A stretch of DNA of 64,000 bases from Enterococcus malodoratus ATCC 43197 (lineage in GTDB: Bacteria > Bacillota > Bacilli > Lactobacillales > Enterococcaceae). The translations under genes and the position numbers were made by a program. Location: assembly GCF_000407185.1 (NCBI RefSeq), contig NZ_KE136482.1, forward strand, positions 1,054,001 to 1,118,000. The letters are read 5' to 3'. Shown here one piece after another: positions 4,701 through 62,697 of the stretch; the first letter of the stretch is position 1; each line of letters opens with the position of its first letter. The notes under the pieces are model-generated. The model was not told the DNA's origin. It saw only the letters and a list, made by a program, of their open reading frames with translations, and made no database searches.

Positions 4701-6187
4701 TCTTTCACAACCCTTCCGTCAATATAAATTCTAGAAATTCCATTTTCCGGAGAGGATACCTTATAATAAGGTAAATCACCATGGTGCCCACCACCGGGAT
4801 GATACTGAATATATCTTGAACTTCCACTGGTTCCTGCCGGGGGATTCATACTAAATCCTCCACCTTTTTCAAAAGGAATACCTGCATTTTCACCTTTCTT
4901 AAGAGGAGTCACATTCCACCCCTTCTTTTTCACAAAATCGACAACATCAATAGGATTAACACCTGTTAGCGAACTCGGTGTATCAATTATTTCGTTTATT
5001 GACTTAACTGAAGTTTGCCACTGAACATTTCCAGATCCATATTTAACCTTAAAATATTCATTCCATTCTTTTCCAGATACTGGATTTTCTGCTCCAAAGT
5101 CAAACTTCACTCTTTTTACTTCATCAAAATAGCCAGCTTTGGTTAATATCGAGATTTCTTTCTCTGTTAACGCAACGCCCTTCAATAGTTTATTTCCTGC
5201 TTTGATTTCTTTCGCCATTCTTAAAAGTTTTTCTACAGGAATTACGGATAAAGCTAACCAAAACCCAGCTTCCAAACGACTTTCTTTTTCTCCTGAAAGC
5301 CAATCTTTTCCAGTCACCAACCGATAGATATCATTAATAAGTGTCAAATCCCCCATGAAATGAAGAGCACTTAAATTCGCAGCTTGAACAATTTCATTAT
5401 ATCGTTTTGACTGTTCTGCGTCATAAATACCATCTACGTAAACTTCGTAGATGTAAGTTTCTCCCTGTGTTCCCTTACCAATAGCCCGTTGTTTAACCTC
5501 AACTTTAGGTCCATCACCTTTTTCCATTGCACGTTTTTCCCACTGCAAATTAATATGCGTAGCCCATGCCATATCTTCCTGTTTCGGCACCATAAATGTC
5601 CCTGTACTTCCATTCCAACATGTCCCAGCCTGTGCTGTTCCCGCGTTCACAGCCGATTCCAGTGTTGCTATCTCAGAAAAAATAGAAGGAGAAGAAGAAT
5701 CGAATTTCAATAATTTTTTTAGTTTCTTGTCCAGTTTCTTCTTCGCCTTTTCTTGCCCCTCTTTGACGTCCTTGACCGACTTCAACACTGTTTTCTTAGC
5801 AGGTTCAGGCAACGGACTACTTGAAACAAATTGAATAATTGAATTGGCGGTATCAATTCCTTGTTGGTATTGTTGAATTTGTTCTTCCAACTCGGATGAT
5901 TTCAAATCCGCACTATCGACTTGTGATTGGTAGTCGTCTGGGAACTTCTGGCACGCTTTGGCGGTTGCCTCAGCCAAAAGCATACCACCTTTAGCTAAAG
6001 GATTTAAGACTGCTGAGAAATATTGTTTGGCTGAATCATAGGTTTTCCCCTGCAACTCGGCACTGCTCATGACAAATTGATTGATGGCTTGCTGAAGCTG
6101 TTGATAGCCTTGAATTTGTTTTTGGCACATCGTGTTGACACCGCTCGCCTGGGCTTGCGAACTGCCGACATACATATCAATGCTCAT
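4697..6187 (-). CDS. LXG-domain polymorphic toxin (type VII secretion substrate)
   Basis: The protein has 496 residues. Residues 1-200 form the helical LXG domain (MSIDMYVGSSQAQASG, FVMSSAELQGKTYDSAKQYF) that is recognised by the Esx/T7SSb machinery. The middle (about 300-360, AGFWLALSVIPVEKLLRMAKE) looks like a pre-toxin linker. The C-terminal 130 residues carry FEKGGGFSMNP and YHPGGGHHGDLPYYKVSS, a His-rich module of the sort seen at the ends of nuclease-type polymorphic toxins. The exact toxin class is not certain. It is the last-but-one gene of a five-gene minus-strand operon and overlaps both neighbours. Its product would be delivered into or against competing Gram-positive cells. Confidence 0.85.
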   Translation of the reverse strand: MSIDMYVGSSQAQASGVNTMCQKQIQGYQQLQQAINQFVMSSAELQGKTYDSAKQYFSAVLNPLAKGGMLLAEATAKACQKFPDDYQSQVDSADLKSSELEEQIQQYQQGIDTANSIIQFVSSSPLPEPAKKTVLKSVKDVKEGQEKAKKKLDKKLKKLLKFDSSSPSIFSEIATLESAVNAGTAQAGTCWNGSTGTFMVPKQEDMAWATHINLQWEKRAMEKGDGPKVEVKQRAIGKGTQGETYIYEVYVDGIYDAEQSKRYNEIVQAANLSALHFMGDLTLINDIYRLVTGKDWLSGEKESRLEAGFWLALSVIPVEKLLRMAKEIKAGNKLLKGVALTEKEISILTKAGYFDEVKRVKFDFGAENPVSGKEWNEYFKVKYGSGNVQWQTSVKSINEIIDTPSSLTGVNPIDVVDFVKKKGWNVTPLKKGENAGIPFEKGGGFSMNPPAGTSGSSRYIQYHPGGGHHGDLPYYKVSSPENGISRIYIDGRVVKE

Positions 6188-40067: not shown

Positions 40068-40781
40068 TCATTCATTCCCATACTTCAACTCATCTGCGTC
40101 TAAATAGACCTGTTCATAAACTGTTTCATCCAGCCGGTAGCCTCTTCCCCAACAGGTTTCGATAATCGGGCCTTGAATATGCTGGCTCGCCAGTTTGTCT
40201 TTCAAATGCTTCACCATTACAGATAGTTGGGACATGCTGGAGTTGCTTTTCTGTCTATTCCACATCCGCAGGCAGATTTCTTCTCGCGAGATGGTTTGCT
40301 TTTCTTGTTCATAAAGAATGCGGAACAGTTTTAATTCTCCGCCGCTCAATGTTAGAGCGGATAGAGGACGTTTCTCCTCAGATTTTGGTAGGAAGACGAT
40401 CTTGCCCTCTTTTCTGACGTTGTTACAGCTAAGTTTTTCTCTCAACGATTCGATCGATGGACGACTCTCGATCCATTCGGTTACACCAAGCTCTTTCCAT
40501 TCTTCTAACTCTGTCTCAGGCACTCGCTCGTCCGATTTTCTAAAGATTGGAATCGAGTATGAACTTAACGTCCGCACCAGTTCTTTCACTTCGGCATTCG
40601 CCAATGTCTCGCTTAAAATAATCTGATGAAACATCTTAATAAATTCGTTGTTGGCGTCTTCCATCAGACATAGGTCAATCAATTCTCTCGAAATAAACAC
40701 TTCATGCCCCAATTGCCTCAGGCGTTTTTCAAAGGTTGGTTCGTTCATTGGATTATTGGTTAATAGTAGGATCTGACTCAT
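40068..40781 (-). CDS. Winged-helix regulator of the WxL operon family (regulator 1b)
   Basis: 237 residues. The C-terminal 100 form an OmpR/PhoB-type winged helix (ALTLSGGELKLFRILYEQEK, ISREEICLRMWNRQKS, QLSVMVKHLKDKL, IIETCWGRGYRLDE). The N-terminal part looks like a degenerate receiver (QILLLTNNPMNEPTFEKRL) without the phospho-acceptor aspartate. It is similar in layout to the products of 40813-41568 and 52995-53681. It is the last gene of WxL operon 1 and probably feeds back on it. Confidence 0.75.
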   Translation of the reverse strand: MSQILLLTNNPMNEPTFEKRLRQLGHEVFISRELIDLCLMEDANNEFIKMFHQIILSETLANAEVKELVRTLSSYSIPIFRKSDERVPETELEEWKELGVTEWIESRPSIESLREKLSCNNVRKEGKIVFLPKSEEKRPLSALTLSGGELKLFRILYEQEKQTISREEICLRMWNRQKSNSSMSQLSVMVKHLKDKLASQHIQGPIIETCWGRGYRLDETVYEQVYLDADELKYGNE

Positions 40782-40812: not shown

Positions 40813-41568
40813 TTAGATACTGATGCTTTTGGGATAATTTCGATACTCGCCCTTCATCAGACATTGATAAAAATAAGCATTTAGTTGATAGCCTTCACCC
40901 CAAAGCGTCATTACCGCATCTTCTATTCCATAAGCTTCCGCTACCTTCTTACGAATTCTCGCCACAGATGAGGATAATTGGCTCAATTTAGAGTTTTGAT
41001 TCTTCGATCGCCAACCGTGGCACAATTCATCCCTAGCTAGTGACAAATTTTCCGCCGCCATTAGCCGATTAATAATACCTTTTTCCAGTTTGGTGAAATG
41101 AATGTCCGAAAAATAAAGCGGAAAAGCTTTCTTCTTAAAATCCGATAGCGGTTGGTCGCCATAAAACGGCTGAACCATCTGACCATTACTAAACTCGATC
41201 TGGTTTAAAAGCGTCTTATGGATTAATTTTTCGCGCAGCCTTTCTAAAGAGGTACTTGCTAAAATCCAATCAAATATATGCCAGTTGTTCCATTCTGATG
41301 ATGCCTCTTCTGTTGGTTCTTCTCCGACAATTCGTAATAAACAATCTGTGCTAAATTGTTCGCCAAATGCTTTCGCTTCAGTATCTGAGATGGTCTCACT
41401 CAAAAAGACCCATTGAAACGACTTCATGAAATGATCCACTCTGCCAGAGTTCTCCCAATTTTCCCAAATAGAGACGGACACCAACACTTCGTAATTTAAC
41501 TTTTGGAGCTGTTCCTGCAAATAGCTTTCGACCGAAATATTCTTCGTTAAGATCAAGATTCGATTCAT
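40813..41568 (-). CDS. Winged-helix regulator of the WxL operon family (regulator 1a)
   Basis: 251 residues from the ATG at 41568 (AGAGGTGG upstream). The N-terminus RILILTKNISVESYLQEQLQ resembles a receiver fold without the acidic pocket. The C-terminal winged helix runs through FTKLEKGIINRLMAAENLSL, RDELCHGW, SSSVARIRKKV and VMTLWGEGYQLN. It is a paralogue of the next gene, 31 bases away. Two tandem regulators here contrast with one in cluster 2. Confidence 0.75.
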   Translation of the reverse strand: MNRILILTKNISVESYLQEQLQKLNYEVLVSVSIWENWENSGRVDHFMKSFQWVFLSETISDTEAKAFGEQFSTDCLLRIVGEEPTEEASSEWNNWHIFDWILASTSLERLREKLIHKTLLNQIEFSNGQMVQPFYGDQPLSDFKKKAFPLYFSDIHFTKLEKGIINRLMAAENLSLARDELCHGWRSKNQNSKLSQLSSSVARIRKKVAEAYGIEDAVMTLWGEGYQLNAYFYQCLMKGEYRNYPKSISI

Positions 41569-41617
41569 TTTCCACCTCTTTTTTATGGAATCCAAGACGA
41601 CAAATTGATATGTATAA

Positions 41618-44778: not shown

Positions 44779-45835
44779 GCATCTCCCTTCCTTTCTTTCG
44801 TTTGATTAGGCGAATGATGAGCCAAGCGGTCACGACAGCGGTCAATGTACCAACGACGTAAAAACTGACCATCCACCAGCTTGGAATGAAAATACGGAAA
44901 GCGGTCTGCTTGTTCATCTTTTCGGCCATTTCACGAGTAATGGTGAAATCTTCTTTGAAATTCCATGTCTTCGTTTTGCCTTTGATCTTTCCGATAAAGG
45001 TATATTCACCTGCCGAAACTTCCTGCATTCCCCAATCAATTTGAAATGGAAAAACTGAATTCGGTGCGATTTTTACGTCTTCGAGACTGTTCTTCGCCAA
45101 CGTACTTTTTTGACCTTTACGAACGATTTTCCCTTCTGCGGTTAGCTTTTGCATGGCTTCTGGATGAGGATTTTGAATACTTGCTTCTAGAACCTTACTG
45201 CCATAATCAATTTCTGGTTGAAGTTTTGTCAGCTTTAAGTCCGTTTCTCCATACACAGGCGCAAAATCCTGTTCAGTTAAGACAAGTCCAATTGCATAAC
45301 CATACGTATTTTTCACTGACATCCCTTTGGAATCATCTTCTTTTCCTTCCGATTTCAATGAGATTCTTATACCGCCAAGAAGGATTCCTTGAAATGGCTC
45401 TGCGGGAGTCTGAATATCTATTTCAGCTTGACCTTCTGAAAAAGCATCCACAGTTGCTTCCTTATTCTTTGGTTTTGCTACGTCTGTGATCGGAAGCTTC
45501 ATACTTTTATCCGGTTTTTTTTCGCGTTTATCATAAGTAATCAAGCCGTTACGATTCGTTGCCGCATTGATCACTTCTACTTTATACGTTTGTTTCTCCG
45601 GAGAAGTGTTCATGATTTTCACTTGAATCGTTTGGCTTTGTTCTGGCTTCATCAATAGATGGTAAAAACTTATCCGATCATTGATCTGATTATCTGGTAA
45701 GACCGCTTGTACCGTGAAGCCGGCACGTTTTTCATTTTCTGTAATCCCTTTTGACTCTTTTCCTTCTTCCGCAAAAGTGATGCTGGGAAATAGAATCAAT
45801 ACTACTAAGCTTAAAATCGGGAGTAGTCGTTTCAT
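44765..45835 (-). CDS. DUF916/DUF3324 WxL-interacting protein
   Basis: 356 residues: signal peptide; DUF916 (about 35-155, FTVQAVLPDNQINDRISFYHLLMKPEQ); DUF3324 (about 165-300); and a C-terminal membrane helix (WWMVSFYVVGTLTAVVTAWL) with a basic cytoplasmic tail. Members bind WxL proteins and host matrix ligands, and form a surface complex with them. It lies between the WxL gene and the LPXTG gene. It is paralogous to 58767-59846. Confidence 0.92.
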   Translation of the reverse strand: MKRLLPILSLVVLILFPSITFAEEGKESKGITENEKRAGFTVQAVLPDNQINDRISFYHLLMKPEQSQTIQVKIMNTSPEKQTYKVEVINAATNRNGLITYDKREKKPDKSMKLPITDVAKPKNKEATVDAFSEGQAEIDIQTPAEPFQGILLGGIRISLKSEGKEDDSKGMSVKNTYGYAIGLVLTEQDFAPVYGETDLKLTKLQPEIDYGSKVLEASIQNPHPEAMQKLTAEGKIVRKGQKSTLAKNSLEDVKIAPNSVFPFQIDWGMQEVSAGEYTFIGKIKGKTKTWNFKEDFTITREMAEKMNKQTAFRIFIPSWWMVSFYVVGTLTAVVTAWLIIRLIKRKKGREMHEKE

Positions 45836-46800: not shown

Positions 46801-46820
46801 GTTTAGTTAAAACTAGGAAT
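46801..46820 (+). repeat. Left inverted repeat of segment 1
   Basis: 20 bp starting GTTTAGTTAA, identical to the complement of 48375-48394. The inner TAGTTAAAACTA is itself nearly palindromic, as expected for a tyrosine-recombinase core site with two arms. Confidence 0.9.
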
Positions 46821-46832
46821 CAGACTAAAAAC

Positions 46833-46879
46833 ACCGTCATACCAACGTTTACAAGCGATGGATGACGGTACCTGACGGC
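46833..46879. promoter_or_regulatory. TGACGG motif cluster near left end of segment 1
   Basis: ACCGTCA (46833-46839, inverted), TGACGGT (46863-46869) and TGACGGC (46873-46879); the last two are ten bases apart, one helical turn. Matching motifs lie at the other end and in segment 2. They may be arm-type recombinase sites. Confidence 0.5.
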
Positions 46880-46959
46880 TTTTACGTATGTTTGTGAATT
46901 TCACTTTATTCTTTTTAATAACTTTTCGGTAAAAAAATAAATATTTGCTTAACAAACCT

Positions 46960-46975
46960 AAGTAAGCGCTTACTT
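46960..46975. promoter_or_regulatory. 16-bp palindrome, cre-like, between recombinase and left repeat
   Basis: AAGTAAGCGCTTACTT is perfectly palindromic and close to an ideal cre. AGCGCTTACTT recurs at 60893-60903 at the same place in segment 2. Its role is unknown; CcpA binding is a guess. Confidence 0.45.
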
Positions 46976-47033
46976 CGATGGAGCAAAAAAGACTCACCAA
47001 ATAGCTGAATATCTTTAAAAAAACGCCAGCTAT

Positions 47034-48149
47034 TTAACTATAATTTCTATTTGCGGTTTCCATTTGGTAAATGACCTCTACTCTTTGTTCCAACATTGAG
47101 TCCGCATAAGTATCTAATGTTAGTTTTGTCGAAGCGTGTCCCAACAGTGCACTAACGGATAAGATATCGCCTTGTACTTCCAAGCAACGAGTCGCAAACG
47201 TATGGCGTAGTTGATGAAAGTGGATATCTTCTAATCCACATTTCTTTCGGATTCGATGAAAGTGATAAGTTAGTAACCGTGGCTCCATCGGATGGTTGTT
47301 CGTAGAGAAGACAAAAATTCCTTTGGATTTGCGGCGATACTTCATTAATTCCTTCCGAAGAGATTTGCTAAGTGGAACTGAGCGGATACCTGAATCGGTT
47401 TTCGTTGAACCAATGACCAGTTGTGTCTTTTGATCTTTTAATTTTAAGGCGATTCGTTGATATGTCTGATTCACCTGAATCAGATTGCGTTCAAAATCAA
47501 TATCGCTCCATTTTAATGCAGCGATTTCTCCAATGCGCAGACCTGTATATAGTGCTAAGTAAGTCGGTAATCCCTTACCAGTTTTTTCTTTTAAAGCAGT
47601 CTTTTCAAGATTGAACTGTTCCTTTTTCGTTAATGCACGAATGATTGGTTTACGAGATTTTGGTAATTTTAACTCCGAGAACGGATTATCTTTGATCTTT
47701 TTATTTTCTTTTGCGGCGTTTAAACATTTGCCTGTTATTCGCAGAATTACTTTCATCGTAGACAGATGTAATCCTTTCTCAGACCATTTGGTGACCAACT
47801 TTTTCCCGATATCTGGTGTTAGTTCATTCAAATAATGGTGCCCGATAAAAGGAAAAACATACTTCGCCAACTTGTATCGATAGGAACTATAAGTAGAAGG
47901 TTTTATCTCATTTTGAATTTCTTGCAGCCACTCTTTTCCCCATTCCTCCAATGGAATACAGGCATCCCCATAAATTTCACGATGTGTATGGTAGTGTGCC
48001 TTCAAGGAATACAGCTTGATCCGTACCTCTTGGAAAGCTTTTCCATAGATATAACCATATTTAATCTGTCCGTTGGCCTTGTACCCCTTTTTGTATCGTC
48101 CTTCCCATCGTCCATCTTTTCTTTTGTAGATATTTTCACCTTTGCGCAT
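47034..48149 (-). CDS. Tyrosine recombinase (integrase) inside switch segment 1
   Basis: 371 residues. An N-terminal AP2-like/arm-binding region (GENIYKRKDGRWEGRYKKGY), a SAM-like core-binding domain (about 70-160) and the catalytic domain with Arg in LYTGLRIGEIAALKW, HxxR in HQLRHTFATR, His in LLGHAST and the Tyr nucleophile in LTLDTYADSM. About 55-60% identical by eye to the recombinase at 60967-62073. It resembles Tn916/phage-type integrases, but no excisionase, attachment-site duplication or cargo is present. The flanking inverted repeats point to site-specific inversion. Confidence 0.9.
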   Translation of the reverse strand: MRKGENIYKRKDGRWEGRYKKGYKANGQIKYGYIYGKAFQEVRIKLYSLKAHYHTHREIYGDACIPLEEWGKEWLQEIQNEIKPSTYSSYRYKLAKYVFPFIGHHYLNELTPDIGKKLVTKWSEKGLHLSTMKVILRITGKCLNAAKENKKIKDNPFSELKLPKSRKPIIRALTKKEQFNLEKTALKEKTGKGLPTYLALYTGLRIGEIAALKWSDIDFERNLIQVNQTYQRIALKLKDQKTQLVIGSTKTDSGIRSVPLSKSLRKELMKYRRKSKGIFVFSTNNHPMEPRLLTYHFHRIRKKCGLEDIHFHQLRHTFATRCLEVQGDILSVSALLGHASTKLTLDTYADSMLEQRVEVIYQMETANRNYS

Positions 48150-48162
48150 AATTCTTTCCTCC

Positions 48163-48181
48163 TGACGGCTTAATTGACGGT
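48163..48181. promoter_or_regulatory. TGACGG motif pair upstream of recombinase 1
   Basis: TGACGGC (48163-48169) and TGACGGT (48175-48181), 12 bases apart, just before the recombinase start. Segment 2 has TGACGGC and TGACGTT with the same spacing at 62092 and 62104. They could bind the recombinase and also autoregulate it. Confidence 0.5.
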
Positions 48182-48291
48182 AAATATTTCGTTACTTTAA
48201 ACGATTTCCGCCTTAATCAACTTCTTTTTAATGTGATTCTCTGTTAACAGAATATTAAATATGTCTTTTTTTAATAAATTAAAACTATATA

Positions 48292-48320
48292 TTGATTATT
48301 CCTAGGCATTATCATATAAT
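48292..48320 (+). promoter_or_regulatory. Outward promoter of segment 1
   Basis: TTGATT (48292-48297), exactly 17 bases, TATAAT (48315-48320), reading right. It lies 54 bases inside the right repeat. In the orientation given it fires toward the terminator at 48456; inverted, it would read into WxL operon 1. Confidence 0.72.
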
Positions 48321-48374
48321 TAAATCAAATCAATTCATCTTTTTATTAGATAATTGTTTTTTAGAAAGAATTTT

Positions 48375-48394
48375 ATTCCTAGTTTTAACTAAAC
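48375..48394 (-). repeat. Right inverted repeat of segment 1
   Basis: Exact reverse complement of 46801-46820. AAGAATTTTAT precedes it and also occurs, in direct orientation, just left of the other repeat. Confidence 0.9.
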
Positions 48395-48693: not shown

Positions 48694-49419
48694 ATGAAAA
48701 AAGTACGTAGAACAACTATTTTAGATGATAGGAACTGGTCACCGTTATGGGAACGGTACCTCAGAGCGGCGACTGTTTTTGATCCGCTGAAGGCTCACGA
48801 GATCACCTGTATCGTGCCGATTCCTGGGCGTTCTGGTGTTATCCTATTTACCACGAATGGGATCTTTTGCAGCTCGCAAAGCGCCTTAAAGACCTTGCAG
48901 CATTTCGCCTTTGCCCACTGTTTTCCGGAGTACAGCATCCTTGCTTCGGTTCTTAAGGACATCGGGGAGTTCGGGAAATACAAGTTTCCTTGGGCTTGTC
49001 CTTACTTCACCCTATTTCCACTAGAAACGATTCACCATACGATCTGGATCAATCCGCTCAAAATCGAGGATATCTATACTGTAGAGAATCAGTATTACGC
49101 GAGAGTGATTGATGGGCCGGATATTTATGTGCCGATTAGTCGTTACTACATTTTGTTACGTGCAGAGATTGCCTGTGGTATTTTAGCGGCGATTCGCCAA
49201 GACGCGTTTCATTATTCGATGCTAGGTACTTGTCCTAGTGACTATGTTCCTCTGTCGAATACGACTTTTTCCATTAGTCTTGGTAAGCGAACACTGTTGA
49301 ATCAATTCGTCACCCGAACTTGTGAAATCAATCGACGATACCAACGCGCACGCTTCCTCCACTATTATGATCAATTAGTCGACAACCCAGAGAACCTCTC
49401 TTGGGAGAATTGGAGCTAA
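48694..49419 (+). CDS. ComK-like protein
   Basis: 241 residues. The middle portion matches the layout of the ComK competence activator: KYKFPWACPYFTLFPLETIH and IWINPLKIEDI stand where ComK has KPPIMV...FLFPTLS...CGWI, followed by IDGPDIYVPISRYYILLRAE (ComK: GKTMELPISYNSFENQ). The fit is by eye and moderate. If real, it binds DNA as a regulator. AAAGGGGAG is a strong ribosome-binding site. It reads away from the WxL operon and ends at a strong terminator. Confidence 0.5.
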   Translation: MKKVRRTTILDDRNWSPLWERYLRAATVFDPLKAHEITCIVPIPGRSGVILFTTNGIFCSSQSALKTLQHFAFAHCFPEYSILASVLKDIGEFGKYKFPWACPYFTLFPLETIHHTIWINPLKIEDIYTVENQYYARVIDGPDIYVPISRYYILLRAEIACGILAAIRQDAFHYSMLGTCPSDYVPLSNTTFSISLGKRTLLNQFVTRTCEINRRYQRARFLHYYDQLVDNPENLSWENWS

Positions 49420-52994: not shown

Positions 52995-53681
52995 TTATTT
53001 GGAGGTTTCTTTATAGAGGCTATAAAATTCTCTTTTTAACAGATACCCTTTTCCCCAAACGGTCTCAATAATATCTGGCGGAAAGCCTTTTTCCGTAAGC
53101 TTTCGGCGCAGTGATTTTATCAAAACAGACAATTGAGCCAGATTCGACTTGGTTGGTTGAGCCCCCCAGATATGCTTGCAAAGCTCTTCTCGCGATATGA
53201 TCGGCGCGTTGGAATTGTATAATTTTTGAAAACATTTCCTTTGATTCTTCGTAAAATTCATGACTAGCTGTTCAAAGGGTTCGGAGATTTGTTGTTTATT
53301 CTTATCACGATTCCTTGCTTTCGCAGCGTGCTTGCTTATCAATTCTCGCAAGACATCTGTCGGTAGAGTTCTATCGATCCATTCATCAATGTCACAGTCC
53401 TTTAAAGCATCCTTTTCTTCTCCAAGCGGTTGACTCAGATATTTTCTGAAGATCACTGCCTGTTTTTCCTTCAATCTGGGAATAATCGCCTCTAACTCTT
53501 TATTGGACAGTGATTCACTAAGAATAATGATCGGATAAAACTCAATGTCCCACTGATCATTCGTGTGCAGCATCATATCAAGCATTGTTTTTGATACAAA
53601 TACCTCGAAGTTAAACTTCTGCAAGCCTTCTTGCATTGAACACTCGTTCAAAATATTATGGGTTAATATTAAAATTCTAAT
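52995..53681 (-). CDS. Winged-helix regulator of WxL operon 2, likely ATT start
   Basis: 229 residues. No ATG begins the conserved N-terminus. In frame after GAGGTGAT comes ATT at 53679-53681, and the following RILILTHNILNECSMQEGL aligns with the ATG-started paralogue RILILTKNISVESYLQEQL (41568). The C-terminal winged helix reads VMNFTKNQRKCFQKLYN, ISREELCKHIWGAQPTKS, QLSVLIKSLRRKL, IIETVWGKGYLLKR. A TTG at 53651 would delete the first strand. It is the last gene of WxL operon 2. Confidence 0.7.
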   Translation of the reverse strand: MRILILTHNILNECSMQEGLQKFNFEVFVSKTMLDMMLHTNDQWDIEFYPIIILSESLSNKELEAIIPRLKEKQAVIFRKYLSQPLGEEKDALKDCDIDEWIDRTLPTDVLRELISKHAAKARNRDKNKQQISEPFEQLVMNFTKNQRKCFQKLYNSNAPIISREELCKHIWGAQPTKSNLAQLSVLIKSLRRKLTEKGFPPDIIETVWGKGYLLKREFYSLYKETSK

Positions 53682-57000: not shown

Positions 57001-58384
57001 TACCGCCTTCCGTTATTGTATGACCTAAATTCGTTACTCTATCTTGGACAGTCGTTCCATCATTGGACGTTACCTGAACTTTTCCTTGCCCACTTGTTTG
57101 AAAAACATCTCCAGTATATGCTTTCCCTACCATCGGAATAGTCGTGGCTGCAGCACTCGCTTGGGTGAACGTCGGGGTTGTGATGGATAAAGCAACTGCG
57201 GAATCGGTAGTGAATACATATGGTGAATGGATACCTTTTGAATCAACAGAAGAGGTTTCTTGCGGATGGAAAAATTCCGCGGAAAATGTTCCGCCCTCAT
57301 AAATTTCAAAAAGCCAGACATAGTAAGTTGTATTCGGTTTTAAATTTGTCATTACTCCGCCAAAGTAAGCAGACGGCATAGATGCAGCTCCGGTATGGTT
57401 GTTTTTCCAAGGTGTTACCACATTGGTACCTTCAGCCTTCAACTGTAGCCACAAATTATTTGGTATTTTTGAAGCATTAGTTAAATTAGCACAAAGTCTA
57501 GTAATACGAGTAGGATCAGTACTCCATACCGCGTATTGAGTGTATTGAGGGCGTTCATACTTATGACGAAGGTAGCTAATGGTGGCTTCTCTCCTCTTTA
57601 TTCCAGCTATAGTTACATTTGCATACGCCTTGTTATAGTATTGTCCGTTATACACAACATCACTAACAGCCCTTGGTGTGATATCCCTTTGAGGGTCCTC
57701 CTCTTCCGTACTTTCTTCAGTTGATTGAGGCTCTTCATTATTTTTTTCTGGTTCCGCAGGAGTATCTGCGGTATCGTCCTGCTCAAATAGATACTGGCCT
57801 TTATGAAGTGTTCTTACTATTGATTGTTCATCATCGGACTCCTCTATGACATAATCTAAAACCAGTCGATAATTTTGTTCATCCAAAATATCATCGGTTT
57901 CAAATTTGAAAGGAGCGTCATTTAGTATGTGATCCTCACCATCCTCAAAGACATTCACCTCAAACCAACCACCATCTGCATCTTTTGCCTGCAAAGCGAC
58001 TGCTTGAATCGTCGTTATTGAATCCTCATTCGGATCAGATCCTAAGTTAATTTCTCCAGTCAGTTTCTCTTGCTCTATCTGTGCTTGCATGACCGGATGC
58101 GAAGCGTTTGCCTCGTCTTCTTTCGATAAGTCACGCTCATCATATGCTTGTTCAGCAAGAATCTCTTCGTCTTGTTCTTCCTTGACCGGTTCTTCCTCTG
58201 AAGTTGTTGTTTCGTTTGAAACGCCTAATACATCACTAGACATTGTCGTAAGTTCCCCAGAAGACGCTTCTGTTAGGCTTGTCTCTTCTGAGTTTTGTTC
58301 GATTGCCACACTGATCAAAGGCTGAATCACCATACTCGATACGATGCTTGTAATAAGGAAACAGGAAAGCCATTTTTTACTCAC
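54023..58384 (-). CDS. Giant WxL-domain surface protein with 219-residue tandem repeats
   Basis: 1453 residues from a GTG at 58384, chosen because it overlaps the LPXTG gene by eight bases just as in cluster 1, and because a signal peptide follows (SKKWLSCFLITSIVSSMVIQ); the frame opens at 58438. An acidic region (about 60-240) precedes three near-identical FN3-like units of 219 residues (each beginning near APTFTQAS and holding RYRGRV, DYGGTWRYSGWSDYFYTPNT, TRYYVRYRVRNSSNVWS). A divergent fourth unit follows, then a C-terminal WxL domain (WSFAARLSPLQTPEG, final IEWLMVNEP). It is probably an adhesin held on peptidoglycan. Confidence 0.85.
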   Translation of the reverse strand: MSKKWLSCFLITSIVSSMVIQPLISVAIEQNSEETSLTEASSGELTTMSSDVLGVSNETTTSEEEPVKEEQDEEILAEQAYDERDLSKEDEANASHPVMQAQIEQEKLTGEINLGSDPNEDSITTIQAVALQAKDADGGWFEVNVFEDGEDHILNDAPFKFETDDILDEQNYRLVLDYVIEESDDEQSIVRTLHKGQYLFEQDDTADTPAEPEKNNEEPQSTEESTEEEDPQRDITPRAVSDVVYNGQYYNKAYANVTIAGIKRREATISYLRHKYERPQYTQYAVWSTDPTRITRLCANLTNASKIPNNLWLQLKAEGTNVVTPWKNNHTGAASMPSAYFGGVMTNLKPNTTYYVWLFEIYEGGTFSAEFFHPQETSSVDSKGIHSPYVFTTDSAVALSITTPTFTQASAAATTIPMVGKAYTGDVFQTSGQGKVQVTSNDGTTVQDRVTNLGHTITEGGTYNSTTVSGLTAGTRYRGRVAIKDYGGTWRYSGWSDYFYTPNTANQPAAPTLNTPTASNNATANVSATYNAGDVAAHPTSTDIQISTNNSTWSTITADTTPAITNRVFNTGSKNVTFTLSKLNAKTRYYVRYRVRNASNVWSGYSTAREFTTGAMSLTITAPTFTQASATTTSIPMVGKAYTGDIYQTNSQGKVQVTSNDGTTLQDRITNLGHTQTQGGTYNSATISGLFAGTRYRGRVVIMDYGGTWRYSAWSDYFYTPNTVNQPATPTLNTPTAANNATAAVSATYNTGEVAAHASTAEVQISTNNSTWTTLSTSTTPATTTPSIATGSKTVSFSLSKLNSRTRYYVRYRARNSSNVWSDFSASREFTTNSVALALTAPTFTQGSATATSIPLVGKAYTGDIFQTTTQGIVQVTPNDGTTIQDKVTNLGHTNTTGGSYNSATVGSLAAGTRYRGRVAIKDYGGTLRYSGWSDYFYTPNTVNQPAISTLGAPTAAADATADVSATYNAGDTAAHPTSTDIQISTDNSTWSTITAETTPAITDRVFNTGTKGVTFKLSKLNAKTRYYLRYRVRNSSNVWSEFSTSREFTTLGVPLDISPPVFDQATATATGIQLKQGTYTGDISQNANDGIVYTESYKNEEANENDWTQRVSNLQHTITRNGTYSSTMINGLTPGTRYRGWVKFKNAEGTDVGPIGQPEGSDNYYFYTKNIVSNLSEPTLNSPVAENGATAEFSVDYQAAGDHPDQPAAHPSDVKIYLSTDGTTFSEINASPNSPSIEDFTIDPTAKKATVKIKTLNAGQTYHVKCSVVNQGGESEQTSARTFTTNQRQPGLYISDTPNFHFGVQAVSPSTTIARLSDHQGTNDIGIKLENIGINSNWSFAARLSPLQTPEGSNQQLTGAQISFNKQLEQTTDGDSWQPVTQDFEGLSDATTLLPSDNSTIQLWRSTSVAAGQGKFKTNIGFDSVNLLVPGNIAQKGAYYDGKIEWLMVNEP
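55190..57166 (-). repeat. Three tandem 657-bp repeats within the giant WxL gene
   Basis: The landmark encoding FTQ(A/G)S recurs at 57161, 56504, 55847 and, degenerate, 55190: exactly 657 bases each time. Long stretches are almost identical at DNA level (for example the segment encoding YSGWSDYFYTPNT). Slippage or recombination could change the repeat number. Confidence 0.88.
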
Positions 58385-58742
58385 TGTTCTCTCTCCCTTC
58401 TCGTTCGTAAATACCGATGAAGAAAAAAAGGAAAACAAATAGCAGGGTTGCCCATCCTAAACAATAAAGGGCAAAGCTGTATTCCTCGCCAGTCATTGGC
58501 AAACGTCGTTGATCTGATTTAGTGAGATAAGAAGTTTCATACCCTCTTTCGGTTTTCGTCGTTTTGATTACCGGGAGATCAATCGAAGGATCGATTTCCT
58601 TTTCTTGTTCTTGATTAGAAAATGTGATAGCTAAAGAGGTTGATGTGGTGCTAGCTGCACAAGAATAGATAGGAGTTAGCAGCAGAAAGGCGCTGCTCAC
58701 TACCCCTAATAATACGAAGGCTGCTGGTCTCTTTTTATTCAT
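58377..58742 (-). CDS. Small LPXTG-anchored surface protein of WxL operon 2
   Basis: 121 residues: signal peptide, a short central part, sorting signal LPMTGEEYSFALYCLGWATL and the positively charged tail KYEREGRENSE-type end. Sortase substrate. Counterpart of 44335-44778 but without the long serine linker. Confidence 0.82.
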   Translation of the reverse strand: MNKKRPAAFVLLGVVSSAFLLLTPIYSCAASTTSTSLAITFSNQEQEKEIDPSIDLPVIKTTKTERGYETSYLTKSDQRRLPMTGEEYSFALYCLGWATLLFVFLFFFIGIYEREGRENSE

Positions 58743-58766: not shown

Positions 58767-59846
58767 TTATAGTGCCTCCCATTTTTTTCTGCGTACATAG
58801 AGACACCCTATTAGAATGACACTCGCAACTCCGATTAAGATAACCACTAAGGGCACCCATTCTTGATACGTAATCGTGAAGCTAGCCTCTTCATTGATCT
58901 TCTTGGCTTGTTTCTCTCCAACGGTAAAATCTTTCTTCCATTCCCAGGTATGCTCTCCTGATTGTGCCCGAACATGCAGCGTGTAGGTACCGCTTTTAAT
59001 CGGATCGATTCCCCAATTGGTCGCGAAATCAAACTGAGAATTCGGGGCCATACGCATGGTGTTCGCTGTACGTTTCTTTAAGATTTCACGGCTGCCCTTT
59101 TTATACAACTTGGTTTCAATCGTCAGGTCGTCTAAAACTTTTGCTTCGGGATTTTGCATTCGAGCTTGAATCACTCGTTTTCCTTGATGGACCGTTGGTT
59201 GTACTTTTAGAAGATTGAGCGAGGAGCCATCATCATATACCTCTGAATCCTCAGTGACCAAAAGGCCGATCCGATAACCAAAGGTAGAGCTCAAGCCCTC
59301 AGCCGCTTCTGACGAATCAGCTTTCATGATACAAATCGTTCCGCCCTTTACACCTTCAAAGGTTTCTTTAGGAGGTGTGACTGTGAGGGTGACGACTTTT
59401 TCTTCATAATTTTCAACCGTGACCGTGCTCTCGGAGATTGAGGTAATTTCTTCGATTGAATTTTTCAAAGTGGAATCTCTTCTATACTCGTCATTGTCGT
59501 AATCGATCACACCATTTTGATTTGTGTGGGCATTTTTTACATAGATGTTGACCTTTGCTGGCTTCACATTCGTGCTTCGAATTTTTATCGTCAGCTCTTG
59601 CGGCTTATTCGGTTCTGCCTTGATGAAATAAAAGCCCTTTTGCGAGTCGATTTGAGTCGCTGTTTTAACTGGTTCAACAGCAAATCCCACGTCATTTTCT
59701 GGCTGTTCTTCCTTCACGCTTGTATTTTTAGTTTCATCCGCATAGCCATAGGAACTATAAAAAATGCAGCCAGATATGAGCAATAGACAACAAAGACTTC
59801 TCCTTATTAGGGAGAAGACATCCTTTTTGGCAAACTGTTTTTCCAT
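58767..59846 (-). CDS. DUF916/DUF3324 WxL-interacting protein
   Basis: 359 residues: signal peptide, DUF916 (about 45-165, DVGFAVEPVKTATQIDSQKG), DUF3324 (about 170-310), C-terminal membrane helix (WVPLVVILIGVASVILIGCL) and a basic tail. Paralogue of 44765-45835. It is the WxL-binding scaffold of operon 2. Confidence 0.92.
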   Translation of the reverse strand: MEKQFAKKDVFSLIRRSLCCLLLISGCIFYSSYGYADETKNTSVKEEQPENDVGFAVEPVKTATQIDSQKGFYFIKAEPNKPQELTIKIRSTNVKPAKVNIYVKNAHTNQNGVIDYDNDEYRRDSTLKNSIEEITSISESTVTVENYEEKVVTLTVTPPKETFEGVKGGTICIMKADSSEAAEGLSSTFGYRIGLLVTEDSEVYDDGSSLNLLKVQPTVHQGKRVIQARMQNPEAKVLDDLTIETKLYKKGSREILKKRTANTMRMAPNSQFDFATNWGIDPIKSGTYTLHVRAQSGEHTWEWKKDFTVGEKQAKKINEEASFTITYQEWVPLVVILIGVASVILIGCLYVRRKKWEAL

Positions 59847-60718: not shown

Positions 60719-60743
60719 TTTACTTAGTATTGTGAAAACCAAG
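60719..60743 (+). repeat. Left inverted repeat of segment 2
   Basis: 25 bp, perfect match to the complement of 62296-62320. The core shares a loose pattern (GTTTT.AC) with the segment 1 repeat when both are read leftward. Confidence 0.92.
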
Positions 60744-60798
60744 GAGGACAGGAAAACCATTGATCCATCAACCTTTCCAGACTGTTCTTGACTAAAAC

Positions 60799-60805
60799 TG
60801 ACGGC
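60799..60805 (+). promoter_or_regulatory. TGACGGC motif near left end of segment 2
   Basis: A single TGACGGC, 56 bases inside the left repeat; segment 1 has the same heptamer 53 bases inside its left repeat (46873). Confidence 0.45.
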
Positions 60806-60966
60806 ATATACAATTGATAAATAGAATTCTCCAGATCTTTTTCAACCTTGTCCGGCAATAAATTGGAAACAAAAACCCTCCCATATAAAGAGAGCGCTTA
60901 CTTAAAATTAAAAAAAGGAAGAGCCCAAAATTCTCTCTCAAATTTTTTTTGATTTCGAATAGTGTT

Positions 60967-62073
60967 TTATTGTAGTATTTTTTCCATTTGATAAATGACC
61001 TGAATACGTTGCTCAATCATGGAATCCGCATAGGTATCTAAGGTTAACTGCGTTGACGTATGTCCCAGCATCGCACTCACGGATAAGATATCTCCTTGTG
61101 CCTCTAAGCACCTTGTCGCAAATGTATGTCGTAATTGATGAAAGTGAATATCCTTGATACCGGCCTTTTCCCGCAACCGATGGAAATGATACGTCAGTAA
61201 GCGTGGTTCTATCGGCCTGCTATTGCATGAAAAAACATAGTGACTGCTTGTTTTTTTCTTTAGCTGAAGTAGCAGCCTTCTCAATTTGCTGCCAAAGGGC
61301 ACGATCCGTATCGCTGCATCTGTTTTGGCTGTGTCATAAACTAGCTGCGTTTTATGTGTGCCATCTGCAAGTGCTAGTCTCTGGTATGTATGAGAAACAT
61401 GGATGATGTTTCTCTCAAAATCAATATCCGACCAGCATAACGCTGAGATCTCTCCGATTCGCAAGCCCGTGTATAAAGCTAAATAAGCAGGTAATCCGCG
61501 AACTCCGCCTTCTTTTAACGCAGCCTTCTCTAGAGTCTGCTGCTCCTTTTGTGACAATGCGCGGATTTTTCTCTTTTCATCCTTGGGCAATCGAATGGAA
61601 GAAAAGGGGTTTTCCTTTAAATAATCCAGTTTCTTAGCCTGATTGATGCATTGGCATAAAATTCGCAACGTGACTTTTATCGTAGATCCTCTTAGGCCAT
61701 ACCGCATCCACTGCTTGATCAGTTCTTTCCCGATTTCCGGTGTTAATTCATTTAACAGGTTTTCTCCGATAAATGGAAAGACATATTTCGTTAGTTTGTA
61801 TTGATAATTTGCATAGGTAGAAGGTTTGACCTCCCCTTGTATCCTCTTTAACCATTGATACCCCCATTCCTCAAGCGGAATACAAAAACTTCCACGGGTA
61901 CTTTGAATGCTCTGATACTGAACCTTTAATGGATAGAGCTTCATCCGTACCTCGTGCAGGGATTTTCCATAAATATACCCGTACTTTACCTGACCATTTG
62001 TCTTTCGGCCTTTCTTATACCGCCCTTCCCATCGACCATCTTTTCTTTGATAAATATTTTCTCCTCTGCGCAT
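60967..62073 (-). CDS. Tyrosine recombinase (integrase) inside switch segment 2
   Basis: 368 residues from the ATG at 62073 (GGAG eight bases upstream; it aligns with the paralogue's start, MRxGENIYxRKDGRWEGRYKKG). Catalytic residues: Arg in LYTGLRIGEISALCW, HQLRHTFATR, His in MLGHTSTQ, Tyr in LTLDTYADSM. The C-terminal VIYQME is shared with recombinase 1. A likely promoter is TTGACC-N17-TATTTT (62177-62205). Confidence 0.9.
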   Translation of the reverse strand: MRRGENIYQRKDGRWEGRYKKGRKTNGQVKYGYIYGKSLHEVRMKLYPLKVQYQSIQSTRGSFCIPLEEWGYQWLKRIQGEVKPSTYANYQYKLTKYVFPFIGENLLNELTPEIGKELIKQWMRYGLRGSTIKVTLRILCQCINQAKKLDYLKENPFSSIRLPKDEKRKIRALSQKEQQTLEKAALKEGGVRGLPAYLALYTGLRIGEISALCWSDIDFERNIIHVSHTYQRLALADGTHKTQLVYDTAKTDAAIRIVPFGSKLRRLLLQLKKKTSSHYVFSCNSRPIEPRLLTYHFHRLREKAGIKDIHFHQLRHTFATRCLEAQGDILSVSAMLGHTSTQLTLDTYADSMIEQRIQVIYQMEKILQ

Positions 62074-62091
62074 AGAAATTCTCCTTCTGAT

Positions 62092-62110
62092 TGACGGCGA
62101 AAATGACGTT
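62092..62110 (+). promoter_or_regulatory. TGACGG motif pair upstream of recombinase 2
   Basis: TGACGGC (62092-62098) and TGACGTT (62104-62110), 12 bases apart as in segment 1. Confidence 0.45.
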
Positions 62111-62176
62111 CTAAACAGATTGTCATTTGCCAGATTTTTCATCTCGTACTTTTGTGTCATTAATTTCGAACTTTCA

Positions 62177-62205
62177 AAAATAGAAACCCGCGTCATTTTG
62201 GTCAA
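62177..62205 (-). promoter_or_regulatory. Probable promoter of recombinase 2
   Basis: Minus strand TTGACC (62200-62205), 17 bases, TATTTT (62177-62182), about 100 bases before the start codon. It is internal to the segment, so the recombinase stays expressed in either orientation. Confidence 0.55.
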
Positions 62206-62212
62206 AAAAACA

Positions 62213-62241
62213 TTGAATTATCATTTAAAATAAATTATAAT
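62213..62241 (+). promoter_or_regulatory. Outward promoter of segment 2
   Basis: TTGAAT (62213-62218), exactly 17 bases, TATAAT (62236-62241), reading right, 54 bases inside the right repeat, the same distance as in segment 1. It is divergent from the recombinase promoter. Confidence 0.75.
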
Positions 62242-62295
62242 GATGTTAGTGGTTAATTTTAAGGTTATTAATTTTTATTTAGCGATTAAAATTAA

Positions 62296-62320
62296 CTTGG
62301 TTTTCACAATACTAAGTAAA
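62296..62320 (-). repeat. Right inverted repeat of segment 2
   Basis: Exact reverse complement of 60719-60743. Confidence 0.92.
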
Positions 62321-62360
62321 TTTAAGGTTATATTTAATATTCCATTTTCGTGATCTCATT

Positions 62361-62395
62361 AAAAAACATCTCTTCAAATTGAAGAGATGTTTTTT
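62361..62395. terminator. Bidirectional terminator just outside segment 2
   Basis: A6-CATCTCTTC (62361-62375), five-base loop, GAAGAGATG-T6 (62381-62395). It would end the outward promoter's transcript after about 145 bases, mirroring 48456-48493. Confidence 0.88.
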
Positions 62396-62697
62396 ATGTG
62401 TATTGACGTTTTCCCTTCTAACGATTTGTATTTCAGACAGCTCCATAACTACTTTTCGAAACTGACCTTTCACTTTTTTTTACAGTACAAATAAAACTTA
62501 TGTTGAGAAGGATTCTCATCCAACGAGATGAACATTAACATAAGAAATCTGATGCCAATTATCAAAACCCAAGCTATCTAAGTACTGTTTTTGAAGGAAG
62601 CCACACATCAGTATTCTCAAAAAAACAAAAAAAGGGATCGGAAAATTCTCCGATCCTCACTCTAAATTCTTTTTTTCTCTATACTAAATACATTTTC
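62396..62697. other. Intergenic region, no gene seen
   Basis: No convincing frame. It contains one terminator-type hairpin (GGATCGGA 62635-62642 with TCCGATCC 62649-62656, T-run on the minus strand) whose parent transcript is unclear; an antisense RNA from the par remnant is possible. Confidence 0.5.

Follow-up and report, generated by a model that had tools for sequence, protein, structure and literature searches.

The window analysed here is a stretch of 64,000 nucleotides from Enterococcus malodoratus ATCC 43197. Towards its right end lies a segment of 1602 bp, bounded by a 25-nt inverted repeat with 100% complementary arms, in which the sole gene encodes a tyrosine recombinase (Table 1). 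Three inverted repeats of at least 22 nt were reported in the whole window and this pair was the only perfect one, the other two being a 91% hairpin and an 83% match with 14 kb spacing. A promoter-like element in the segment faces outward, with 54 nt between the end of its TATAAT and the right arm, and 122 bases separate the left arm from the start codon of the first gene of a surface-protein operon. Since the promoter reads to the right and the operon sits on the left, the assembled form is OFF, and a terminator-like hairpin is predicted to stand in the path of the promoter in this orientation.

The operon resembles the WxL operons of enterococci and other Gram-positive bacteria in encoding a WxL-like, a WxL-interacting, a small and a large surface protein. 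The product of the first gene matched WxL neither with the Pfam model nor in the genome search, and its label WxL-like derives from 34% identity to a WxL-matching protein of E. gilvus. The C-terminal end of the 1471-aa protein gave a WxL match (2.2e-11) in the genome search and none in Pfam scans. A first-pass annotation had proposed a promoter switch in front of a second WxL operon. The architecture is as it described and a WxL-interacting protein is present, but the first gene has no direct match to a WxL model, and the promoter faces away from the operon in the assembly. Most WxL operons lack such an inverton, and in this genome 3 of 9 loci for WxL-interacting proteins lie behind one. The contig carrying the window (1.19 Mb) is similar in size to megaplasmids of E. 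raffinosus on which near relatives occur, and the window may lie on a megaplasmid.

The window also contains a paralogous inverton (segment 1), in which the promoter-like site again lies 54 nt from the arm and the WxL start 120 bases beyond the segment. The annotation had reported the perfect 25-bp repeat around the recombinase, which was confirmed to the base, and the agreement of the two segments in promoter position, length (1602 and 1594 bp) and distance to the WxL start, all of which we recovered. In total, the recombinase of the 1602-bp segment has three close paralogues in its own genome (65, 65 and 55% identity), and all four loci have inverted repeats (25, 20, 17 and 22 nt) with spans of 1590-1622 bp. 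Flanking repeats reached at most 13 nt at the remoter integrases of the genome (8 of 16 for which a locus was returned). As all four close copies have repeats and the eight remoter integrases do not exceed 13 nt, the repeats do not arise by chance, a point that the annotation had argued from two instances. Three of the four loci precede WxL operons and the fourth (L004) precedes a pilin-type gene.

A gene of 241 aa (48694-49419) adjoins the promoter end of segment 1, and 25 further invertons have a relative of it at their promoter end; at locus L116 the relative is on the opposite side of the inverton. Its product had no match in Pfam, NCBIfam or the PDB, and a ComK match was seen in 1 of 17 relatives (E = 0.043).

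Table 1. Positions of features in the window (strand: + or -; a dot where none applies)
Feature	Position	Strand	Basis or detail
Paralogous inverton (segment 1)	46801-48394	.	Arms 46801-46820 and 48375-48394, 20 nt; span 1594
Segment 1 recombinase	47034-48149	-	Paralogue of the 368-aa recombinase
Segment 1 promoter-like site	48292-48320	+	TTGATT 48292-48297, N17, TATAAT 48315-48320
Large multidomain surface protein, 1471 aa	54023-58438	-	fn3/Ig-like and F5/8 C domains
Small surface protein, EF2685/EF0750-like	58377-58742	-	44.1 bits, just under the curated cut-off of 47
WxL-interacting protein	58767-59846	-	PF06030, PF11797
First operon gene, WxL-like surface protein, 227 aa	59914-60597	-	Homology
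Left recombination site, operon-proximal	60719-60743	.	Near-palindromic; half-sites flanking a 7-nt core
Probable arm-type repeat TGACGG, near left site	60799-60804	+	Motif
Cre-like palindrome, between recombinase stop and left site	60890-60901	.	10/12 match to GTAAGCGCTTAC
Tyrosine recombinase, 368 aa	60967-62073	-	PF00589 at 1.4e-25
Probable arm-type repeat TGACGG, by recombinase start	62092-62097	+	Motif
Outward promoter-like site, TTGAAT-N17-TATAAT	62213-62241	+	Consensus; TTGAAT 62213-62218, TATAAT 62236-62241
Right recombination site, second arm	62296-62320	.	Inverted-repeat partner
Terminator-like hairpin	62360-62396	.	18-bp perfect hairpin and T run, 39 nt past right site

A recombinase of the Tn916/Tn1549 type

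In an alignment of 118 recombinases, from which the L116 sequence was excluded (five stops), R205, K250, H312, R315, H338 and Y348 were each conserved in at least 99% of the sequences. We take these to be the catalytic residues, with K250 as the presumed catalytic lysine. The best sequence and fold matches were to the Tn1549 integrase (6emy, 6.7e-29; 6en2, 1e-16), followed by Xer-like and lambda integrases. An AlphaFold model built with 10 sequences (mean pLDDT 77.9, lower at the extreme N-terminus) placed strands at residues 7-9, 15-23 and 29-36 and a helix at 39-51. The protein is like the integrases of Tn916 and Tn1549 in its catalytic residues, its N-terminal three strands and helix and its PDB matches. 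A Pfam scan gave no match to an arm-binding domain; in the IntTn916 subgroup this domain, which folds as three strands and a helix, can escape Pfam detection, as stated in PMC8138268. The recombinase belongs with the integrases of the Tn916/Tn1549 type, which usually count as markers of mobile elements, and its N-terminus is modelled with the fold of an arm-binding domain, for which DNA binding is a prediction.

Repeats of TGACGG are probable arm-type sites. Among 105 family loci they were present at the left end in 95, at the right end in 94 and at both ends in 86, with 143 and 145 copies in the two ends, whereas the recombinase genes had 14 and the outer flanks 7 and 3; this motif and the cre-like palindrome described below had been noticed in the same sequences before they were counted. 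The recombinase may bind these repeats, and TTGACGGC is a candidate DNA target for its N-terminus. A reading of the locus as a defence system was dropped, as the two recombinases scanned had no PADLOC match.

Inverted repeats, cores and promoter-like sites in the family

The annotation had rested on two instances and had named the absence of inverted repeats around homologous recombinases elsewhere as evidence against an invertible segment. We found 125 recombinase copies, some partial, in 12 of 20 genomes of the genus (E of 1e-60 or better). Across the taxonomic family, copies were present in 37 of 105 genomes and 4 of 17 genera, and a second genus was rich in them (194 copies, in 22 of 22 genomes). 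From the genus we fetched 124 of the 125 copies, leaving out one partial copy. Two sets of 105 loci were drawn from these: loci with 330 bp on both sides, for the repeat and core counts, and loci with a repeat score of at least 14, for the promoter, TGACGG and cre-like counts. Inverted repeats scoring at least 14 were present in 96 of 105 copies with at least 330 bp of both flanks (median 20). At the same score, mismatched pairs of left and right flanks gave 16 of 315, and direct repeats 11 of 105. The invertible reading thus withstood this check.

In the second genus, where 60 of 194 matches were fetched by score and from near-complete assemblies rather than at random, repeats passed in 49 of 60 and fell under the threshold in 11. 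In three other genera 17 of 18 loci passed, a set which overlaps that of the second genus; one locus of the second genus that failed at a search width of 550 bp (L211) passed at 600 bp (as L196). A copy on an E. faecalis plasmid scored 22. Misses occurred within the family, as in E. gilvus L067 (score only 12) and L205 (only 10). Outside it the repeats were mostly gone: scoring of 15 remoter loci from the L048-L064 set gave one with repeats (L050, a Lachnospiraceae copy with 30% identity and a perfect repeat of 27 bp) and 14 without. In a single enterococcal genome (G012), repeats were detected at 24 of the 26 recombinase copies, which makes these 24 candidate switches. Two pairs of its invertons have identical sites (L148/L150 and L147/L152) and could recombine mutually.

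Each arm is a near-palindrome in itself, with the site consensus ttTTTCTTgGTnTtannAAaACcAaGAAAan. For all 76 of the 76 sites that could be centred, which had been selected for a good palindrome, the two arms of the locus agreed in each of the seven central columns; the match is partly by construction, because the sites were located through the repeat itself. What counts is the contrast with the outer half-site positions, which vary within loci (68-92% at several columns), and with other loci, between which the same seven columns agree at 25-83%. Matching cores with tolerant half-sites are the pattern required for strand exchange by a tyrosine recombinase.

An outward promoter-like site (score of at least 10.7, within 130 nt of the arm) was found in 96 of 105 loci. 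Dinucleotide shuffles gave 54 of 315 and simple shuffles 66 of 315, and such sites were rare on the opposite strand (8/105), at the other end (1/105) and in the operon leader (5/104). The site was recognised by consensus, from which its activity is predicted, and in the 1602-bp segment it is presumably active. Past the promoter-proximal arm, 39 of 98 loci (under half) had a terminator-like hairpin, likewise recognised by consensus, in the next 250 bp, and so did all four loci of the E. malodoratus genome. Controls gave 6 of 294 for simple shuffles and 2 of 98 for the shorter 120-bp leader, one of the two being L004, at the threshold. In 57 of 105 loci a cre-like palindrome (at least 10 of 12 matches), labelled from what we take to be the cre consensus, followed the stop codon of the recombinase at a distance of about 40-90 bp; four other regions had one in 0-1 of 105. 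That it could be a CcpA site is a guess.

These counts bear on two other readings of the segment. The assembled orientation could be the expressed one, with transcription running on from the recombinase gene into the operon and some other role for the outward promoter. In 135 of 142 loci an outward ORF does follow the 3' end of the recombinase on the same strand, although 28 of these have one on the other side as well. However, the scarcity of promoter-like sites at the recombinase 3' end and in the leader (the counts above), the terminator-like sites that separate the recombinase from the operon in 21 of 98 loci, and a conserved promoter that faces the operon only once inverted make this very unlikely. 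Alternatively, the promoter could now drive a gene on the other side, inversion alternating between two transcription units. Segment 1 and 25 further loci have a related gene of about 240-360 aa that lies 239-490 bp past the promoter-proximal site and faces away, as such a two-way arrangement would predict. Of the 23 such loci scored, 8, segment 1 among them, have a terminator-like site before that gene; the other 15 have none, and for these a two-way switch may apply. At the 1602-bp segment, the first 500 bp on that side contain no start of an outward ORF of more than 89 aa. We consider a two-way switch very unlikely for this segment.

Inversion in relatives and orientation of the assembled copies

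Inversion was directly visible at homologous loci, which supports the invertibility proposed in the first-pass annotation. The first 40 kb or so of contig C1 of genome G091 (3,842,361 bp) recur at its end: matches to ABC genes at 4877, 6230 and 38604 recur on the same strand at 3807117, 3808470 and 3840837, and those at 45100 and 3797506 have no recurrence. The repetition has the appearance of an untrimmed circular overlap. One inverton lies inside it and is therefore represented twice (L259 and L260); the flanks are 99.95% identical over 3728 bp per side, while the 1560-bp segment, 99.87% identical, is in opposite orientations. Where the arms differ, the outer base was kept with the flank and the inner bases had travelled with the segment, which locates the crossover to the shared bases lying between these positions, inside the core. 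If the repetition is an overlap, both orientations were present in one DNA sample; a true duplication would also show inversion. The recombinase of this inverton is 42% identical to that of the 1602-bp segment.

Further cases were found by comparing orthologues. Locus L156 aligned with L184 in reverse over 4754 bp of flank (95.6%) and forward over the segment (87%), the switch falling at the arms, and it was likewise flipped against L158. L256 was flipped against L254 and L249, with flanks of up to 84%. L116, with its broken recombinase, appears flipped, as its neighbour gene lies on the opposite side. In the genus, 37 of 834 flank-matching pairs were crossed, each of them involving L156 (32) or L116 (5); the second genus had 10 crossed pairs of 267, each involving L256 (8) or L260 (2). 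Both orientations therefore occur among family members, and the 1602-bp segment is assembled OFF.

To tally orientation, we required at least 700 bp outside both arms and scored outward ORFs of at least 120 aa starting within 300 bp. In the genus (n = 93) such an ORF lay on the OFF side only in 72 loci, on both sides in 16, on the promoter side only in 1 and on neither in 4; this tally is crude, and counts L116 as ordinary despite its displaced neighbour gene. The corresponding numbers in the second genus (n = 49) were 35, 12, 2 and 0, so that the promoter end alone had an outward gene in 3 of 142 scorable loci. Sequenced cultures, the window included, seem to be mostly OFF. On the E. raffinosus megaplasmids no opposite orientations were seen between L065 and L066 (two strains) or among L068, L069 and L070 (three strains), the segment and the operon side being co-oriented. 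Upstream flanks differ between L065 and L066, and L068 has an extra 1.5 kb relative to L070; these extra stretches of about 1.5 kb upstream of L065 and L068 are perhaps insertion sequences. With nearly all copies assembled one way and E. raffinosus in agreement, flipping may be rare or tightly controlled. Six contig ends, of the 26 lying no more than 1.5 kb from a recombinase, fell inside the arms; this could reflect mixed orientations, and we give it little weight because the breaks are on one side only.

The predominance of one orientation would also suit a fixed recombinase cassette, a relic or minimal integrative element whose ends are the repeats, with no inversion and the operon read from elsewhere. 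The integrase is moreover of a kind whose arm-binding domain is regarded in PMC8138268 as strongly predicting phage or ICE function and mobility. Yet the natural inversions have their breakpoints at the sites, the L259/L260 pair in particular disfavouring a cassette, the cores match within loci, and the repeats are inverted, direct repeats of that score occurring in 11 of 105 loci. Recombination between inverted sites inverts the DNA and does not excise it, unlike recombination between the direct-repeat attachment sites of an integrative mobile element. We regard a fixed cassette as very improbable.

The proposed switch and its context

The 1602-bp segment is, with high confidence, a self-contained invertible promoter, presumably acted on by its own Tn916/Tn1549-type integrase, and it can probably flip to switch the surface-protein operon on and off. 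The recombinase would bind the two inverted sites and, we infer, the internal TGACGG repeats, and strand exchange inside the identical core would then invert everything between the sites. In the ON orientation the outward promoter would read across the left site into the WxL operon; in the assembled OFF orientation it would read right into the terminator-like hairpin. By analogy with the relatives, this copy is expected to flip, with its own recombinase as the likely acting enzyme and on/off variation of the surface operon as the predicted effect on expression.

Invertons such as fimS of E. coli and the CwpV and flagellar switches of C. difficile have the same short inverted repeats, tyrosine recombinase, internal promoter and downstream surface genes. 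The switches described here differ from these in that the segment itself encloses the recombinase, which is one of the arm-binding integrases, and each locus has its own recombinase and mostly its own core, with up to about two dozen loci per genome. Unlike the elements of IntTn916 and Tn1549, the sites are inverted, and the 1602-bp segment contains the recombinase as its only gene and is set before an operon. The family, in which arm-type repeats have probably been retained, would be an exception to the rule that links an arm-binding domain to phages and ICEs, and it suggests that integrases with such a domain are not always signs of mobile elements. It also supplies naturally differing pairs of recombinase and site.

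Invertons were scarce among Bacillus-like Firmicutes in two surveys, with one inversion signature in 22 Bacilli samples (PMC5903667) and a median of 0 invertons per genome (PMC11892184). Here a single recombinase family gives the 24 candidates of G012. We found no prior description in open-licence PMC papers; bioRxiv and most subscription journals were outside the scope of the search, so an earlier report is possible. A wider proposal, for which we judge the chances to be even, is that a Tn916-type arm-binding integrase lineage was domesticated into dedicated invertases and spread before many unrelated surface operons. Because most copies have their own core sequence, two dozen switches in a genome would flip independently and generate combinatorial surface variation, and the conserved cre-like operator may couple flipping to carbon supply.

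The candidate switches precede WxL, pilin and secretion-type operons and regulators. First downstream genes of 109 loci were grouped into BLAST clusters, each named from one Pfam-scanned representative. The classes were an operon of DivIVA-like protein (below cut-off), signal peptidase and glucosaminidase (30), WxL (29, about a quarter), SpaA-type pilin (17), winged-helix regulator (16), a 137-aa protein (6) and others (11). On a tree of 98 recombinases, in which some long branches were flagged, five downstream classes needed 16 changes (minimum 4, shuffled mean 54.6), and the WxL class alone needed at least 8 by well supported branches. The module has thus been re-used before different operons, though not freely. 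Winged-helix Trans_reg_C proteins (40068-40781, 40813-41595 and 52995-53651) are encoded downstream of both WxL operons of the window, and are of the same kind as the first gene behind the 16 invertons of the winged-helix class, as judged by its representative.
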